Shown one piece after another: positions 14,836-32,793 of a stretch of DNA of 64,000 nucleotides. The number at the start of each line of letters is the position of its first letter. Position 1 is the stretch's first letter. The notes below the pieces were generated by a model. The model ran no database searches, was not told the DNA's origin, and was given only the letters and a program-made list of their open reading frames with translations. The stretch spans positions 1 to 64,000 of the forward strand of contig LNEJ01000028.1 of the NCBI GenBank assembly GCA_001464965.1, read 5' to 3'. Both the position numbers and the translations under genes were made by a program. Origin of the DNA: Gammaproteobacteria bacterium Ga0074134. GTDB taxonomy: Bacteria > Pseudomonadota > Gammaproteobacteria > Ga0077554 > Ga007554.

Positions 14836-16158
14836 ATGACAAGACGCAATCTCAAAAAAATGCCGGTCGAAACGGCGCGGGCCGATGTTGAATCCCTGGC
14901 ACAGGACGCCCGTGGCGTGGCTCACATTGGCGGCAAGGCGGTGTTTATCGAAGGTGCGCTGCCGGGTGAGGAGGTGATGTTTACCTATACCGCCCAGCGT
15001 CGGCGTTATGATGAAGGCCAGGCGGTACGTATACTCAAGGCCTCACCGCACCGTGTCGAGCCGCGCTGTCCGCATTTCAATGTGTGTGGCGGCTGCAGCC
15101 TGCAACACATGGCGGTCGAGGCGCAGATTCTCGCCAAGCAACAGGTGATGCTCGACAGTCTCGCGCACATCGGCAAGGTAGCCCCTGAATCCCTGCTGCC
15201 CCCACTCACCGGGCGGCACTGGGGATACCGGCGCAAGGCGCGGCTGAGTGCGAAATACGTGATAAAAAAACAGGCAATGCTGGTGGGCTTCCGCGAAAAA
15301 CGCAGCAACCTGCTCGCCGATTTGACGCGCTGTGATGTGCTTGATCCCTCCGTGGGTGAGCGCATTATGGAGCTGCGGGCGTTGCTCGATGGCATGGACG
15401 CGCGTGACTGCATACCACAGATTGAGATTGCAGTAGGTGATCACCATACTGCCTTGGTGTTCCGCACGCTTGCCGATCTTGATGGCGACGATCAGGCCAG
15501 GCTGCGCGGGTTTGGCGAGCATCACGGTTTTCAGATCTATCTGCAACCGGGCGGGCCGGAGGCAGTGACACTGCTATGGCCGGAGTCCGCCACACTTAGC
15601 TACCGCCTGCCGGATTACGATCTCGAGCTGTTTTTCTTGCCCACCGATTTCACCCAGGTGAATGCCGGACTCAACCGCACGATGATCAATCGTGCGCTGG
15701 AGCTATTGGACCCGCAGCCCGGCGACCGGATACTCGATCTGTTTTGTGGCTTGGGCAATTTCACGCTGCCGCTGGCGCGGCACGCGGGCAGCGTGGTGGG
15801 CGTGGAGGGGAGTGAGGAACTGGTGCAACGCGCGCGCGGCAATGCGCAGCGCAACAACATCACCAATGTTGAGTTCCATGCCGCTGATTTGAATCTTGCC
15901 GTGGACTATTCATGGGTCGGCCTCGGTTTTGACAAGATCCTGCTCGACCCGCCCCGCACGGGTGCCTTCGAGGCTGTCAAACACCTGCCTGCCTTTGGCG
16001 CCTCGCGCATGGTGTATGTCTCATGCAACCCTGCCACTTTGGCGCGTGACGCCGCCGAACTGGTACACCATCATGGTTACCGTCTGGTCAGCGCAGGTGT
16101 CATGGATATGTTCCCGCATACTACGCACGTGGAATCCATCGCATTATTCGAGCGGTGA
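14836..16158 (+). CDS. rlmD: 23S rRNA (uracil-1939-C5)-methyltransferase RlmD
   Basis: SAM-dependent methyltransferase that modifies U1939 of 23S rRNA. The 440-aa product has an N-terminal TRAM domain and a [4Fe-4S] cysteine set (CPHFNVCGGCSLQHM plus a later CDVLDPS). The SAM site is DLFCGLGNFTLPLA, the DPPRTGA motif follows, and the catalytic Cys is in YVSCNPATLARD. ATG 14836 is chosen over an in-frame start at 14797, which would overlap the exonuclease gene; MTRRNLKK is a normal basic N-terminus. The 3' end overlaps the convergent dehydrogenase by 15 nt. Confidence 0.95.
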   Translation: MTRRNLKKMPVETARADVESLAQDARGVAHIGGKAVFIEGALPGEEVMFTYTAQRRRYDEGQAVRILKASPHRVEPRCPHFNVCGGCSLQHMAVEAQILAKQQVMLDSLAHIGKVAPESLLPPLTGRHWGYRRKARLSAKYVIKKQAMLVGFREKRSNLLADLTRCDVLDPSVGERIMELRALLDGMDARDCIPQIEIAVGDHHTALVFRTLADLDGDDQARLRGFGEHHGFQIYLQPGGPEAVTLLWPESATLSYRLPDYDLELFFLPTDFTQVNAGLNRTMINRALELLDPQPGDRILDLFCGLGNFTLPLARHAGSVVGVEGSEELVQRARGNAQRNNITNVEFHAADLNLAVDYSWVGLGFDKILLDPPRTGAFEAVKHLPAFGASRMVYVSCNPATLARDAAELVHHHGYRLVSAGVMDMFPHTTHVESIALFER

Positions 16159-17178
16159 CTCACGCTCAAATTTCACGACATTCTGCGGTTGTCCGGCAAA
16201 GAATCCGCCTATGTTTTCAATCGTTGTTGATAGGCTGAGTTCTAACGTCTCGGTAGTATTGAAGGCATTGTGGGGTGTCAGGAGAACATTTTCGCCCAAC
16301 TGTAACTGAAAACTGTGCAGCGCCTGCTCAAACTGCGTTGATGTCAGGTCACGCGGCAGGGGGGCCTGGGCATGGAGCCACACCATTTCTCCCTCGAACC
16401 TGTCCAGCGCCAGGCCGCCAAAATGCCCCTCCGCCTGCAGCCGCGCCAATGCACGGCTGTCGATCAGCCCCCCGCGCGCAGTGTTTACCAGCACCGCTCC
16501 CGCCTTTAGTAATCGCAGCCGCGCTTCATCGAGCAGGTGATGCAGGGGGGTGGTATAAGGCAGGTGGAGGCTAAGCGCATCCACCTGTGGCAACAAGGTG
16601 TCAAGGTCCAGATAATCTACGCCATAATCCTGGCTGAGTTGTGTATTGGGCTGGGGGTCCCAGGCCAGGATGCGCATGCCGAAGGCGTGGGCGAAGCGCG
16701 CCACCCGCATGCCGACCGGGCCGGTGCCGATTATCCCCAATGTCTTGCCGTGCAAATTCTGTCCCGTGAGCCCGATGCGGGAAAAATTGCCATTGAAGCA
16801 TCGCTTCAATGTGGGTGACAGGCGCCGCATCAGGGCGATGAGCAGGCCGAAGGCATATTCCGCTTTTGCGATTTCACCGTAATGTGGCACATTGCACACA
16901 GTTACCCGGTGCTGTGCCGCCGCCAGGTCGATATGATCGACACCGGAAGAACGTGTCGCCACGAGGCGCAACGCCGGAAGCCGTTCGAGTATCCCCAAAG
17001 TGATCGGGCTGTCGGTAAAGATTGAGATTGCTGCGCTCTTTTCCGCAAGCACGGTATTTTTCAGGCTCAGCGGTTCCTCCACCAGCCGGGCGTCCCAAAA
17101 CGGATAATTATTGAGCGCTCTGCGCAGCAGCGGGTGCTGATCTTCCGAGACATCGTAAAAGGTAATATCGGCAACCAT
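16144..17178 (-). CDS. D-2-hydroxyacid dehydrogenase (D-lactate dehydrogenase-like)
   Basis: NAD-dependent 2-hydroxyacid dehydrogenase of 344 aa. The substrate domain has ATRSSGVDHIDLAAA. The Rossmann motif is GIIGTGPVGMRVA, followed by an acidic residue after the second strand that suits NAD. Catalytic Arg is in NTARGGLIDSRAL and His in LLTPHNAF. The general shape fits the fermentative D-lactate dehydrogenase branch, which would use pyruvate, but substrate identity is inferred. It is divergent from the hsp20 gene, and the perfect FNR-type box at 17294-17307 lies 116 nt upstream of its start, so shared oxygen control is possible. Confidence 0.85.
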   Translation of the reverse strand: MVADITFYDVSEDQHPLLRRALNNYPFWDARLVEEPLSLKNTVLAEKSAAISIFTDSPITLGILERLPALRLVATRSSGVDHIDLAAAQHRVTVCNVPHYGEIAKAEYAFGLLIALMRRLSPTLKRCFNGNFSRIGLTGQNLHGKTLGIIGTGPVGMRVARFAHAFGMRILAWDPQPNTQLSQDYGVDYLDLDTLLPQVDALSLHLPYTTPLHHLLDEARLRLLKAGAVLVNTARGGLIDSRALARLQAEGHFGGLALDRFEGEMVWLHAQAPLPRDLTSTQFEQALHSFQLQLGENVLLTPHNAFNTTETLELSLSTTIENIGGFFAGQPQNVVKFERESPLE

Positions 17179-17293: not shown

Positions 17294-17335
17294 TTGATCT
17301 AGATCAATGTTTTTTGAGTTAGCTGGGTATATATT
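17294..17335 (+). promoter_or_regulatory. FNR/ANR box and class II promoter for hsp20
   Basis: TTGATCTAGATCAA at 17294-17307 is a perfect match to the FNR/ANR consensus TTGAT-N4-ATCAA. A TATATT -10 hexamer follows at 17330-17335. With initiation about 7 nt further on (near 17342), the box centre at 17300.5 falls at -41.5, the standard class II activator position. No -35 hexamer is needed or seen. The leader to the hsp20 ATG would be about 117 nt. Confidence 0.75.
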
Positions 17336-22852: not shown

Positions 22853-22866
22853 TTGATTTAGGTCAA
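22853..22866. promoter_or_regulatory. FNR-like box between arsC and the P-type ATPase
   Basis: TTGATTTAGGTCAA matches TTGAT-N4-ATCAA except for one base (G for A in the right arm). On the plus strand a TATCAA/TATATC-rich stretch at 22880-22892 gives a possible -10 at roughly the class II distance, pointing towards the P-type ATPase. It lies too close to the arsC start to activate arsC in the usual way. Confidence 0.5.
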
Positions 22867-27155: not shown

Positions 27156-27736
27156 ACGCAGCTTAAGGATGTTCCGTCACTCTTATGATGCGCAATGCGC
27201 GGACGGCCTGAGTTGGATAACACAATCGCGCGGGCTTTCGCTGGACCGCGCGCATCGCAAAAAATAAATGTGTCGTTCGTGCCGCCCGAACTGCCGTGAG
27301 GCTGAAATACGACGGGTTGGTGCGCTCCCGATTTTATCGTGAAACTATCATTCACGGCGTTTTGCAGCCGCAATACCATCTCGTTGCTCTCATGTTTCCT
27401 GTTTGAGTTGTCATCGACGAAGACGATCCATCCTTCATGCCAGGTTGAGTGCTTGGCGCAATTGTGTTGATCCGTGCTGGGGCAGAGCACCACCCGCGCT
27501 CCACGATGAATCGCCTCGCTACGCGCCAGATTGAGATGCGCCATAAAATCGTTCACCCGCGTCACCATGCGATTGTCCATGAGCAGGTTTTGCAACGAAG
27601 GCGCGGCGGAGACGGCGATGATCCCGGTAATGGCAAGAGTGGACAGCATCTCAATCAGTGTGAAGGCGGATTGCTCTGATTTACGGGCTGTTGCTGCGTG
27701 ACAGGGGGGTAAAGTCAGGTGTTTATTGTTGTGCAT
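27152..27736 (-). CDS. Orphan GspH/FimT-type minor pseudopilin
   Basis: Type IV pilin-like protein of 194 aa. The class III signal contains FTLIEMLSTLAITGIIA (Phe25, Glu29), followed by one membrane helix and a GspH/FimT-like globular domain (LNLARSEAIHRGARVVLCPS and a C-terminal GRPRI block). The residue before the cleavage site is Ala (SAFTLIE) and not the usual Gly, which may slow processing by PilD. ATG 27736 is chosen; the open frame upstream to 28225 runs antisense to the next operon and is not coding. There are no other pilus or type II secretion genes around it, so it must work with a system encoded elsewhere, or is a relic. Confidence 0.85.
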   Translation of the reverse strand: MHNNKHLTLPPCHAATARKSEQSAFTLIEMLSTLAITGIIAVSAAPSLQNLLMDNRMVTRVNDFMAHLNLARSEAIHRGARVVLCPSTDQHNCAKHSTWHEGWIVFVDDNSNRKHESNEMVLRLQNAVNDSFTIKSGAHQPVVFQPHGSSGGTNDTFIFCDARGPAKARAIVLSNSGRPRIAHHKSDGTSLSCV

Positions 27737-27841
27737 ACGATGGCCGGCCAGAAAGTGGTTTATTTGTTGCCCCTTCCCTGGCGGAATTTCAAGGCAATTA
27801 TGGCAAAGCCACCCCGCGAAAGGCAAGTATCTGCGTCTTGT

Positions 27842-27855
27842 TTGATTTAGATCAA
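27842..27855 (+). promoter_or_regulatory. Perfect FNR/ANR box before the DUF6763-DksA-HPF operon
   Basis: TTGATTTAGATCAA fits TTGAT-N4-ATCAA exactly. A second TTGAT half site follows at 27861. A -10-like GATTAT/TATAGT stands at 27895-27903, which would place the full box near -60 (class I) and the half site near -41. The box lies 93 nt before the first ATG of the operon and about 106 nt before the divergent pseudopilin gene. Confidence 0.7.
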
Positions 27856-27947
27856 ACAAGTTGATTAATCGGCTTTCTTCCGCAACGATTTTGTGATTAT
27901 AGTGAATCTGCGCGGAAAACAAGGGAAGAGTGCAGGGGGGTAAATCA

Positions 27948-28289
27948 ATGTCGACCGAGGGCGATCCGATGGTAGGAAACTGGTACCGGCACTTGGATAA
28001 AGGCCAGGAATTCCAGGTAATTGTCGTGGACGAGGCGGATCGTGTTGTCGATATACAGCATTTCGATGGAGACGTGGAATCGCTGGATTTGGACATGTGG
28101 TATGACATGGATGTGGAATTGATTGAAGCCCCGGAAGACTGGACCGGACCCGTGGATGATGTCGAACGGGATGATTTGGGATACGAGGAAACAGATATGG
28201 AAACCAAAGAATGGTCAGAGCCCATGGAGGAGGTGCGAAGTACCGGGGAAGAACGGCAAGGCCAAGGGTCGATAGAAGAGGAGGGCTAA
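27948..28289 (+). CDS. DUF6763-like acidic small protein
   Basis: A small acidic protein of 113 aa of unknown function. The N-terminal part (MVGNWYRHLDKGQEFQVIVVDE...IQHFDGDVESLDLDMWYDM) resembles the short uncharacterised DUF6763 family. The C-terminal third is Glu-rich and looks disordered. ATG 27948 follows a GGGGGG stretch 7 nt upstream; the in-frame GTG at 27930 is less likely, and ATG 27969 is a further option. It has one base between its stop and the DksA-like gene, so the two are one unit. The family is often seen beside DksA/TraR-like genes, but this link is from memory and moderate in certainty. Confidence 0.75.
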   Translation: MSTEGDPMVGNWYRHLDKGQEFQVIVVDEADRVVDIQHFDGDVESLDLDMWYDMDVELIEAPEDWTGPVDDVERDDLGYEETDMETKEWSEPMEEVRSTGEERQGQGSIEEEG

Positions 28290-28290
28290 T

Positions 28291-28686
28291 ATGAATTATT
28301 TATCACAACAACAGCTTGCGGATTTCAGGGCGCGGTTGCGCGCGCAAAAGGCCGCATTGCTGGAGGAAATCCGCCGGGAATTATTGCAATCGGACAATGA
28401 GCATTACATCGACCTTGCCACCACCGTCCACGATGTTGGAGAAGAATCCGTTGCTGATCTTCTGTCGGATCTGGATCTTGCTGTCATCCACCGTCACGTC
28501 AACGAAGTTCGTGATATCGAAGACGCGCTGCAGCGCATCGCCGAAGGCATGTACGGCATGTGCCTGGATTGTGAGGGGGAGGTTGGCTACGAGCGGTTGT
28601 CCGCCTATCCGACGGCAAAGCGCTGTTACGATTGTCAGGATTACCATGAAAAGGGTTTCGCAGAGGAGGGACGTCCCAGATTATAG
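28291..28686 (+). CDS. DksA/TraR-family zinc-finger protein
   Basis: RNA polymerase secondary-channel type regulator of 131 aa. It has an N-terminal coiled-coil (residues about 5-75) and a C-terminal four-cysteine zinc finger (MCLDCEGEVGYERL...KRCYDC). It is shorter than DksA (about 151 aa), and the coiled-coil tip lacks an obvious DxxDxA, so stringent-response activity like that of true DksA is uncertain. It lies between the acidic protein and a hibernation-factor gene in a three-gene unit with a perfect FNR-type box upstream. The role inferred is resetting transcription under anoxia or stress. Confidence 0.88.
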   Translation: MNYLSQQQLADFRARLRAQKAALLEEIRRELLQSDNEHYIDLATTVHDVGEESVADLLSDLDLAVIHRHVNEVRDIEDALQRIAEGMYGMCLDCEGEVGYERLSAYPTAKRCYDCQDYHEKGFAEEGRPRL

Positions 28687-28757
28687 GGCCTGGATTAGAA
28701 GCAACCAGACAGGGAAACCCTACGCTGTTTTCCCAGAAGAACGAAAAGGAGATACAT

Positions 28758-29327
28758 ATGCAACTGCCGCTGCAAGTCACATTTCGCAACATGTCCCCCT
28801 CGGATTTGGTTGAAGCGGATGTCCGCAAGAGGGTTGACAAGCTTGATGAGTTTTATGACCGCATCATGAGATGTCGCGTCATGGTAGAACTAGACAACTC
28901 GCGTCATCATCAGGGCAATCTCTATCATGTGCGGGTTGATCTGACCGTGCCCAACGGAGAGATCGTGGCGAGCCGCGCCTCCCCGGAACACCATGCCCAT
29001 GAGGATGTGTATGTGGCGATCCGGGATGCCTTCGATGCTGTCGAGCGCCAATTGGAAGATTACTCCCGGCGTCAGCGTGCCGACGTCAAAACCCATGAGA
29101 CGCCCTCCCATGGTCGGGTTGCGCAACTGTTTCCAGAGAGAAGCACCGGTATTATCGAGACCGCGGACGGGCGTGAAATCAACTTTTACCGCAATGCCGT
29201 TCTGGAGGACGCCTTTGATAAATTGACCATTGGCAGCGAGGTCCGCTTTACCGAGCAACCGATCGAAGAAGAAGGGCCTTGGGCCAGCACTGTGAGGCTG
29301 ATGGGCAAGCACCATATCCCAGGTTGA
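28758..29327 (+). CDS. HPF/RaiA-type ribosome factor fused to a cold-shock-like domain
   Basis: Protein of 189 aa. Residues 1-105 form an HPF/RaiA domain (beta-alpha-beta-beta-beta-alpha; VRKRVDKLDEFYDRIMRCRV, YHVRVDLTVPNGEIVASR), which in relatives sits in the decoding centre of idle ribosomes. Residues about 115-185 look like a cold-shock/S1-type fold (HGRVAQLFPERSTGIIETADGR...GSEVRFTEQ), with the RNP1-like aromatic positions largely changed. This C-terminal module differs from the dimerising tail of long HPF. AAAGGAG stands 8 nt before the ATG. It is the third gene of the FNR-box operon, 71 nt after the DksA-like gene, which fits ribosome storage in low oxygen. Confidence 0.88.
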   Translation: MQLPLQVTFRNMSPSDLVEADVRKRVDKLDEFYDRIMRCRVMVELDNSRHHQGNLYHVRVDLTVPNGEIVASRASPEHHAHEDVYVAIRDAFDAVERQLEDYSRRQRADVKTHETPSHGRVAQLFPERSTGIIETADGREINFYRNAVLEDAFDKLTIGSEVRFTEQPIEEEGPWASTVRLMGKHHIPG

Positions 29328-29340
29328 ACGTTCTGTCTGG

Positions 29341-30753
29341 TTAGCAGCCTGCCGGGCTAGGTTTGCTGGCTTCAAACCACGCCAGCTTGTCCCTCAATCT
29401 CACAACCTCTCCCACGATCAGTAAAGTGGGCGCATGCACTTCAGTCGCGGCGACTATGTCTGGCAGGGTTTCCAGTGTGCCAACGATGACACGCTGGTGA
29501 GGGGTGGTGCCTTGTTGTATGAGGGCGATGGGTCTGTCTGTGGGCATGCCATGATTAATCAATTCCCTGCACAAAATATCAAGTCCCGCCAGCCCCATAT
29601 AGATCACCACTGTTTGCTGGGGCTGCACGAGATTGGCCCAGTTGAGGTCCATCGAACCATCCTTGAGGTGCCCGGTGACGAATACCACTGATTGCGCGTA
29701 ATCGCGGTGGGTGAGGGGGATGCCGGCGTAGCTGGCGCAGCCGGAAGCGGCGGTGATGCCGGGGACTATCTGGAACTGGATGCCGTTCTCGGCGAGTGTT
29801 TCGATCTCTTCGCCACCGCGCCCGAAGATGAAGGGGTCGCCGCCTTTCAGGCGCAGCACGCGCTTGCCTTGCTTGGCAAGGCGGACTAATTCCTGATTGA
29901 TTTCCTCCTGCCGCAGGGTGTGGTAAGCCCGCTTTTTCCCGACGTAGATACGTTCGGCTTCGCGGCGTACCAGGTCTAATATTTCCGGTGTTACCAGACG
30001 GTCGTAGAGTACGGTATCAGCCTGCTGCATCAGGCGCAGGGCACGGAAGGTGAGCAGGTCGGGATCGCCGGGGCCTGCGCCGACAAGATAGACTTCACCA
30101 CGTTTCAGAGAGTCCGTGCTTGGCGCATCCTCCAAAGCGGCCTGGATGGCGATGCCTGCCTCATTATCACGGCCGTTGTATACCATTTCGGCAACCGGGC
30201 CTTGAAAAATATTTTCCCAAAAACGGCGGCGTTGCGTGGTGTTTTCAAAACGTTGTTTTACCGGATCGCGAAAGCGTGCCGCGAGTTCGGCCAGCCGCCC
30301 ATACGATGCGGGTATCAGCGTCTCCAGTCTTGCGCGCAACAGCCGCGCCAGCACTGGAGACGTACCGCCGGTGGAGATTGCGGCGATGACCGGCGAGCGG
30401 TCGATGATGGAGGGAAGGATGAAGCTGCACAGTTCTGGCTGATCGACCACATTGACGGGAATGCTGCACTGTTTGGCTGATTCGGAAATCCGTTGGTTGA
30501 TGGCGATGTCATCCGTTGCCGCGATAGCCAGCGCTGCACCGGCCAAATCAGATTCTTGAAAATGGGCGGCGCGGTGCCGGATTTTCCCCGCAACGCGCAA
30601 CTCAGACAGCGCATCATTCAACTGCGGCGAGACCACCGTTACCTGTGCTCCGGCGCGCAGCAGCAGGCCAACCTTGCGCGCGGCTATTTCGCCGCCGCCT
30701 ACTACCAGGCACGGCTGGTTTTTTATATTGAGAAATACCGGCAGAAAATCCAC
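29341..30753 (-). CDS. cysG: Siroheme synthase CysG
   Basis: Trifunctional enzyme of 470 aa. The N-terminal module (1-about 210, [20 protein letters not shown]) is the precorrin-2 dehydrogenase/sirohydrochlorin ferrochelatase. The C-terminal module (from about residue 220, [23 protein letters not shown], then DRLV and [15 protein letters not shown]) is uroporphyrinogen III C-methyltransferase. Siroheme serves sulfite and nitrite reductases. It is convergent with the HPF gene and lies 83 nt downstream of serS, the same neighbour order as in many gammaproteobacteria. Confidence 0.96.
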
Positions 30754-30836: not shown

Positions 30837-32418
<1,582 letters not shown>

Positions 32419-32422
<4 letters not shown>

Positions 32423-32793
32423 ACCTGTCTCCCGATAATTACGCCGAACCATGTGGCGGTGATGCACACGCCGACACTTAACAGGATATTCAGTAGCGCC
32501 TTTAATGTTTCGCCTGTCTCGAACAGGTTAAGCGTTTCCATGGAAAAGCTGGAGAATGTGGTGAAACCGCCGAGCAATCCCACCAGCAATGCCGCACGCC
32601 ACTCCCCGCTCATATTGAATCTGTCAATCAACAGGACATAAAGCAGCCCCATGATGAAAGACCCCAGTACATTGACCGCCAGCGTGCCATACGGAAAGGC
32701 GCGTCCAAAAATGCCGTGCACTCCGGTGGACATCAAAAAACGCAGCACGGAACCCACGGCACCGCCTGCGGCAATCAGGAAAATCTGGTTCAA
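32419..32793 (-). CDS. crcB: Fluoride channel CrcB/FluC
   Basis: Dual-topology fluoride export channel of 124 aa with four membrane helices. Signatures are AAGGAVGSVLRFLMS, the FPYGTLAVNVLGSFIMG block with the conserved Asn, and GLLGGFTTFSSFSMET with the paired Phe and Thr/Ser pore residues. The start is TTG 32793; no ATG is in frame before it and the Shine-Dalgarno is weak. I looked for a fluoride riboswitch in 32794-32871 and found no match to its conserved bases. Confidence 0.94.

Follow-up and report, generated by a model that had tools for sequence, protein, structure and literature searches.

Hibernation factors and DksA are usually seen as answers to starvation that act through ppGpp. 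The locus described here raises the question of whether a bacterium could instead tie both ribosome storage and a DksA-like control of transcription directly to oxygen. The window, that is, the whole stretch of 64,000 nt analyzed (positions 1-64000 of contig C28), comes from the genome of an uncultured bacterium (G000; 2.9 Mb in 80 contigs), and it holds three adjoining genes on the plus strand behind an FNR-type box:

27838..27859, perfect 22-bp dyad TTGTTTGAT-TTAG-ATCAAACAA around the FNR box
27842..27855, perfect FNR-type box TTGATTTAGATCAA, centre at 27848.5
27861..27865, plus strand, extra half-site TTGAT, named in the initial annotation
27898..27903, plus strand, predicted -10 element TATAGT, within the conserved TTTGTGATTATAGTGAA
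27948..28289, plus strand, DUF6763 gene (PF20549, E 1.7e-31; 113 aa)
28291..28686, plus strand, DksA/TraR-like gene (zf-dskA_traR, E 2.4e-9; 131 aa)
28758..29327, plus strand, hibernation factor (HPF) gene, assigned by sequence to the HPFcold class (S30AE, E 1.2e-17; 189 aa)

An FNR-type box ahead of a compact three-gene unit

The initial annotation had described a tightly packed unit encoding DUF6763, a DksA/TraR-like protein and an HPF with a cold-shock domain (CSD), and the open reading frames, the Pfam matches and the gaps of 1 nt (DUF6763 to DksA-like) and 71 nt (DksA-like to HPF) bear this out. No terminator-like site was found by a scan of positions 27700-29450, and the unit ends after HPF, as cysG converges on the other strand only 13 nt beyond. 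The perfect FNR-type box reported ahead of the operon was likewise found to be exact, and the source genome carries 18 perfect sites, some of them intragenic, against none for a reversed control pattern.

A gap-free alignment of four promoters from the genus extends from the dyad through TTTGTGATTATAGTGAA, and the dyad is kept in 4/4, central spacer excepted. The centre of the box lies at -61.5 from the predicted start, with +1 placed 7 nt past the TATAGT hexamer; this distance was computed on the DksA-like promoter of a related species (G006), and the spacing in the window promoter is identical. At FNR class I promoters the box is centred at -61.5, and a TTGAT-N4-ATCAA box at an activating distance, as expected of a member of the FNR regulon, is found here. 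A generic promoter scan returned no sigma-70 site on the plus strand at the operon promoter, and the predicted -35 is weak, which is compatible with, but does not prove, an activator-dependent promoter. We infer that FNR binds the dyad and that this promoter is used. The extra half-site, in turn, is TTGAT in the window, but its counterparts in the three remaining promoters of the alignment are TTGTT, CTGTT and TTGTT, so that it is found in one promoter out of four; for this reason it was rejected as a second FNR element, and its presence is probably due to chance.

The genome encodes an FNR (L329, at C34:79840) that scores 250.3 bits against the NCBIfam Fnr cut-off of 228 and has the N-terminal Cys motif. 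Perfect boxes also precede a gene for a di-haem cytochrome c peroxidase, a cytochrome c gene followed by a phosphorylase-like gene, hsp20, and a CBS gene that follows a small lysine-rich one; the CBS and hsp20 genes lie at L337 and L338, on contig C8 of the source genome. Within the window, a second perfect box (17294-17307) lies 115 nt ahead of the gene for a D-2-hydroxyacid dehydrogenase of the lactate type (16144-17178, minus strand), and a box with one mismatch (22853-22866) lies between genes for a permease-like protein and a P-type cation ATPase. At 32111-32793, on the minus strand, a DUF190 gene overlaps a CrcB-like gene (fluoride channel, judged by eye).

The operon in related genomes

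In a second species (G005), the three genes, their order, their spacing and the perfect box are all retained. In G006, a third species of the same genus, the operon is split in two, with a perfect box at both halves. The syntenic locus of G006 holds DUF6763 with its own perfect box, while the DksA-like and HPF genes are absent between DUF6763 and cysG; the promoter followed by these two genes is found at a second locus approximately 397 kb away. Homology of this second locus to the window covers 27825-27960 and then 28255-29340, meaning that DUF6763 has lost 294 bp (98 codons) there. The simplest account would be that the three-gene operon was duplicated and that the two copies then underwent complementary losses. 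The relocated DksA-like copy has a further perfect box close to a divergent gene; the relocated pair (locus L248) also adjoins a CBS gene, with an Hsp20 gene nearby. The proposal that the three families form a single FNR-controlled unit is supported by the conservation in G005, by the boxes at both halves in G006 and by the co-occurrence of the families.

Association of the three families

This co-occurrence, which the initial annotation had asked to be checked, was counted in 369 genomes of the class, where HPF-like proteins (some of them short forms without a cold-shock domain) were found in 86, DUF6763 in 125 and the DksA-like family (E 1e-18 or better) in 70. HPF and DUF6763 share 60 genomes (Fisher p 6e-15), DksA-like and DUF6763 share 51 (p 1e-13), and DksA-like and HPF share 42 (p 7e-14), all p values being uncorrected for phylogeny; 36 genomes have all three families. 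Members of the three families are also neighbours above chance.

At the level of gene neighbourhoods, an HPF-CSD gene lies within 800 nt of 12/72 DksA-like genes, always on the same strand (12/12; 7 downstream and 5 upstream), and DUF6763 lies within 800 nt of 5/72, again always on the same strand (5/5). No other co-directional neighbour of the DksA-like genes stood out as recurrent. DUF6763 is also found within 800 nt of 15 of the 130 HPF genes scoring at least 100, on the same strand in 5 cases and on the opposite strand in 10 (L005-L010, L255, L267, L268 and L288), nine of the latter being divergent. The complete three-gene set is rare, being present at 3/72 DksA-like genes (G000, G005 and G086), and the 80 named HPF loci include a DksA-like gene in 3 and DUF6763 in 7. 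Among 398 genomes of the phylum the DksA-like family has matches in six, all inside the class, which makes an outside test set for this family impossible.

FNR-type boxes among homologues

After de-duplication, and with at least 250 nt of upstream sequence for each gene, 72 DksA-like, 115 HPF-CSD and 106 DUF6763 genes were available. Perfect boxes within 300 nt were found at 6/72, 1/115 and 3/106 genes, respectively, and boxes with at most one mismatch at 9/72, 14/115 and 4/106. Control sites, namely 38 palindromes with permuted half-sites, gave in the same order means of 0.1, 0.1 and 0.0 perfect matches (maxima 1, 1 and 0), and means of 0.6, 1.2 and 0.8 with at most one mismatch (maxima 3, 6 and 3). 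The DksA-like and HPF-CSD genes are therefore enriched in boxes, whereas the DUF6763 count with at most one mismatch is scarcely above the controls and its three perfect sites all fall within the window's genus. A second background of 1413 other upstream regions from the same loci contained 16 perfect boxes and 60 with at most one mismatch, against which the Fisher p values, uncorrected for relatedness, were 0.0004 for DksA-like genes (perfect boxes) and 0.0008 for HPF-CSD genes (at most one mismatch).

Four families (f1, f12, f113 and f144) account for the six perfect boxes of DksA-like genes. In the order of G332, a perfect box stands ahead of all five DksA-like genes for which upstream sequence is available (the sixth, cut at a contig end, was dropped), and in the order of G150 it is present in 3/4 genes, the remaining one having one mismatch. 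Together, 8/9 DksA-like promoters of these two orders carry a perfect box and the ninth differs from it by one mismatch; as both orders were picked because a member had a box, this figure describes conservation within lineages and not a fresh discovery rate. No site with at most one mismatch is present in the 300 nt ahead of 63/72 DksA-like and 101/115 HPF-CSD genes, and oxygen control would therefore be a feature of particular lineages and not a rule of the families.

The DksA-like protein

The DksA-like protein scores below the curated cut-offs for DksA (TIGR02420, 62.7 vs 115.5 bits; NF033459, 61.4 vs 105 bits), for TraR (TIGR02419, 34.1 vs 59.7 bits) and for YteA. Its best solved match is 1tjl (E 1.9e-9), and its predicted model (four sequences, pLDDT 83.5) has the fold of DksA, with Z 11.4 to both 1tjl (DksA) and 4ijj (DksA2) and an rmsd of 3.3 over 107 residues to 1tjl_A. 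It consists of a coiled coil with the tip D48xxE51xS53 and a C4 zinc finger. In the family alignment (73 rows for 72 genes, the window's gene being counted twice), 70 rows have D at the first tip position, 72 have D or E at the second and 71 have S or A at the third; when compared to DxxDxA, the window protein reads DxxExS and the family consensus is Dxx[DE]x[SA]. Between 60 and 73 of the 73 rows retain the zinc cysteines, depending on the position; approximately 8/73 rows (L075, L156, L164 and others) lack zinc-finger cysteines, as in DksA2. Given the altered but retained tip and the C-terminal helix predicted at residues 113-126, the protein is probably active. A standard DksA (L047), whose tip is DPNDRA, is encoded in the source genome as well.

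According to the accessible text of PMC7676912, residues L95, K98, R129 and K139 of E. coli DksA contact ppGpp, and alanine at K98 or R129 abolishes site-2 binding. The window protein has E, D, Y and Q at these positions. Across the 73 rows, L is found in none at L95, K in none at K98 (R in 8), R in one at R129 and K in three at K139, and basic residues never occupy two of the K98, R129 and K139 positions in a single row. The initial annotation had proposed transcription assays of this protein with ppGpp; with the site-2 residues lost family-wide, a partnership with ppGpp was rejected.

The hibernation factor and the DUF6763 protein

The HPF comprises an S30AE domain (residues 5-107) and a cold-shock domain (residues 119-180). 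Taken alone, the window copy matches PF00313 with E 0.003, below the Pfam cut-off, but S30AE and PF00313 are matched in 12/12 homologues of its alignment (A1), with a best PF00313 E of 4.7e-12, so that the cold-shock-like C-terminus put forward previously is real. The usual dimerisation tail is missing, as had also been claimed: the Pfam matches are S30AE and CSD only, and the C-terminal dimerisation domain of long HPF is absent among them. The profile matches PDB 9t0z chain 9 over its positions 1-179 with E 8.2e-58, and by sequence the protein belongs to the already published HPFcold class. The member CBU_0020 of Coxiella burnetii is described, in the available part of PMC13392368, on monomeric 70S ribosomes, where it binds the anti-Shine-Dalgarno sequence. 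From membership in this class, 70S monosomes are expected and dimers are unlikely, and the measurement of ribosome dimers suggested in the initial annotation would not be an appropriate readout. Contig C13 of the source genome carries another S30AE gene.

DUF6763 (PF20549) is recognized with 108.7 bits against a Pfam cut-off of 27. In its model, built from eight sequences, residues 12-59 form five strands and a short helix, modelled with high confidence, and confidence is low for the tail, which is acidic by eye. The protein is predicted to fold into an SH3-like beta-barrel over about residues 10-60, followed by an acidic disordered tail. No solved relative was found by sequence (best hit 6s5z, E 0.47). 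By fold, it resembles common SH3-like barrels of many families, none of them distinct (Foldseek best E 0.052; Z at most 6.9), and kinship with FeoA, Tudor or KOW is therefore not claimed. SH3-like domains that bind RNA polymerase are known, and together with the gene's context they suggest that DUF6763 could serve as an adapter of RNA polymerase or of the ribosome. No paper naming the family was found in the literature search made.

Proposed role and alternative explanations

Taking these results together, we consider it probable that the locus is an FNR-activated growth-arrest operon, in which control of RNA polymerase that is blind to ppGpp is paired with storage of 70S ribosomes. When oxygen falls, FNR would act as a class I activator, binding the dyad at -61.5 and recruiting RNA polymerase to the promoter with the weak -35, and one transcript would give rise to the three proteins. 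The S30AE domain of HPFcold would block the decoding centre of idle 70S ribosomes, while its cold-shock domain would shield the anti-Shine-Dalgarno end of 16S rRNA, such that monosomes and not dimers would be stored. DUF6763, with its barrel and acidic tail, would probably be an accessory that docks on either RNA polymerase or the ribosome.

The box could instead belong to a pilin-like gene on the minus strand, which shares the intergenic region and reads away from the operon beyond the box; the operon would then have another promoter. In G006, however, the box moved with the DksA-like and HPF genes to a pilin-free place, with homology starting from about 27825; as both halves of the split operon kept perfect boxes, the box follows the operon genes and not the pilin-like gene, whose ownership of it we regard as highly improbable. 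The binder could also be another Crp/FNR protein (Dnr-like and responding to NO or nitrite, or of another kind), the signal then being nitrosative or redox stress and not oxygen loss. The genome has four further HTH_Crp_2 matches, three of them above the cut-off, and L330, which passes no family cut-off, has an E-x-x-S-R-like recognition helix. Nevertheless, a canonical FNR with its Cys motif is encoded and the other targets of the box suit an FNR regulon, and we find a different regulator quite unlikely.

What the proteins do once expressed may also be read differently. The DksA-like protein could be Gre-like, acting on backtracked complexes, or an inert competitor that blocks the secondary channel: its D-x-x-E/D-x-S/A tip resembles the DxxExA of GreA/GreB (given as the Gre motif in the accessible text of PMC9239242), and the D74 position is E in 39/73 rows. 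The match to 1tjl, the Z score to DksA and DksA2 and the C4 zinc finger kept in most rows point instead to a DksA-type protein, and a Gre-like or inert one seems unlikely. Generic packing of stress genes would place three proteins with unrelated jobs behind handy FNR boxes, with nothing but expression in common; HPF would store ribosomes, and the other two would serve other targets. CBS genes near 13/80 and Hsp20 genes near 5/80 of the named HPF loci, the perfect boxes that CBS and Hsp20 genes have of their own in the source genome, and the 60/72 DksA-like genes that stand apart from HPF are all in agreement with such packing. On the other hand, the DksA-like genes pair on one strand with HPF and with DUF6763 in every case, in a gene order that varies both ways, and all three pairs of families co-occur strongly across genomes (Fisher p about 1e-13 or lower, uncorrected for phylogeny); we are inclined to doubt that shared expression is the whole explanation.

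If the locus is indeed a growth-arrest operon under FNR, both arms, hibernation and the DksA-like protein, appear tied directly to oxygen via one promoter, and the DksA-like partner seems to be ppGpp-blind. Since the three genes sit behind an oxygen-sensor switch and the pocket for the starvation signal is lost, oxygen loss alone could bring the cell to rest. A broader and more tentative suggestion is that ppGpp-blind DksA paralogues have come under FNR control in several gammaproteobacterial lineages and that here, together with HPFcold and a DUF6763 adapter, they may form an arrest switch free of alarmone, by which the loss of oxygen would by itself stop ribosome synthesis and store the ribosomes already made. 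This would offer sediment and groundwater bacteria a route to pause and restart with oxygen swings, and it places DUF6763, so far a family with no assigned role, in the concrete setting of RNA polymerase or ribosome control.

Comparison with known systems

Literature searches on FNR and hibernation, on Anr with DksA and hibernation, and on FNR-controlled DksA/TraR-like genes found no description of this operon. The accessible part of PMC8510549 mentions neither hibernation nor DksA, and that of PMC5705914 links DksA to limiting carbon and Anr to limiting oxygen without naming the operon.

With FNR class I promoters, the locus shares the position of the box, a -10 element and a weak -35, the start here being predicted. 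RafH of Mycobacterium is under DosR control, and we know of no DksA-like partner for it. As described in the available text of PMC10799931, RafH is an HPF induced by hypoxia, which maintains 70S monosomes and makes contact with the anti-Shine-Dalgarno sequence; its C-terminal domain differs from that of the window HPF. HPFcold (CBU_0020, 9t0z) shares with the window HPF the succession of S30AE and cold-shock domains and a similar length, but the window gene stands behind an FNR box in an operon with a DksA-like gene, and oxygen control is not mentioned in the accessible text of PMC13392368. The DksA-like protein, at 131 aa, is longer than TraR (73 aa, according to the part of PMC9239242 available); with DksA, DksA2 and TraR it shares the coiled coil, the acidic tip, the C4 zinc finger and the fold, while it differs from DksA and TraR in falling under their curated cut-offs and in having lost the residues that contact ppGpp. 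The parts are of known kinds; what is new is their combination, and a ppGpp-blind DksA family under FNR.
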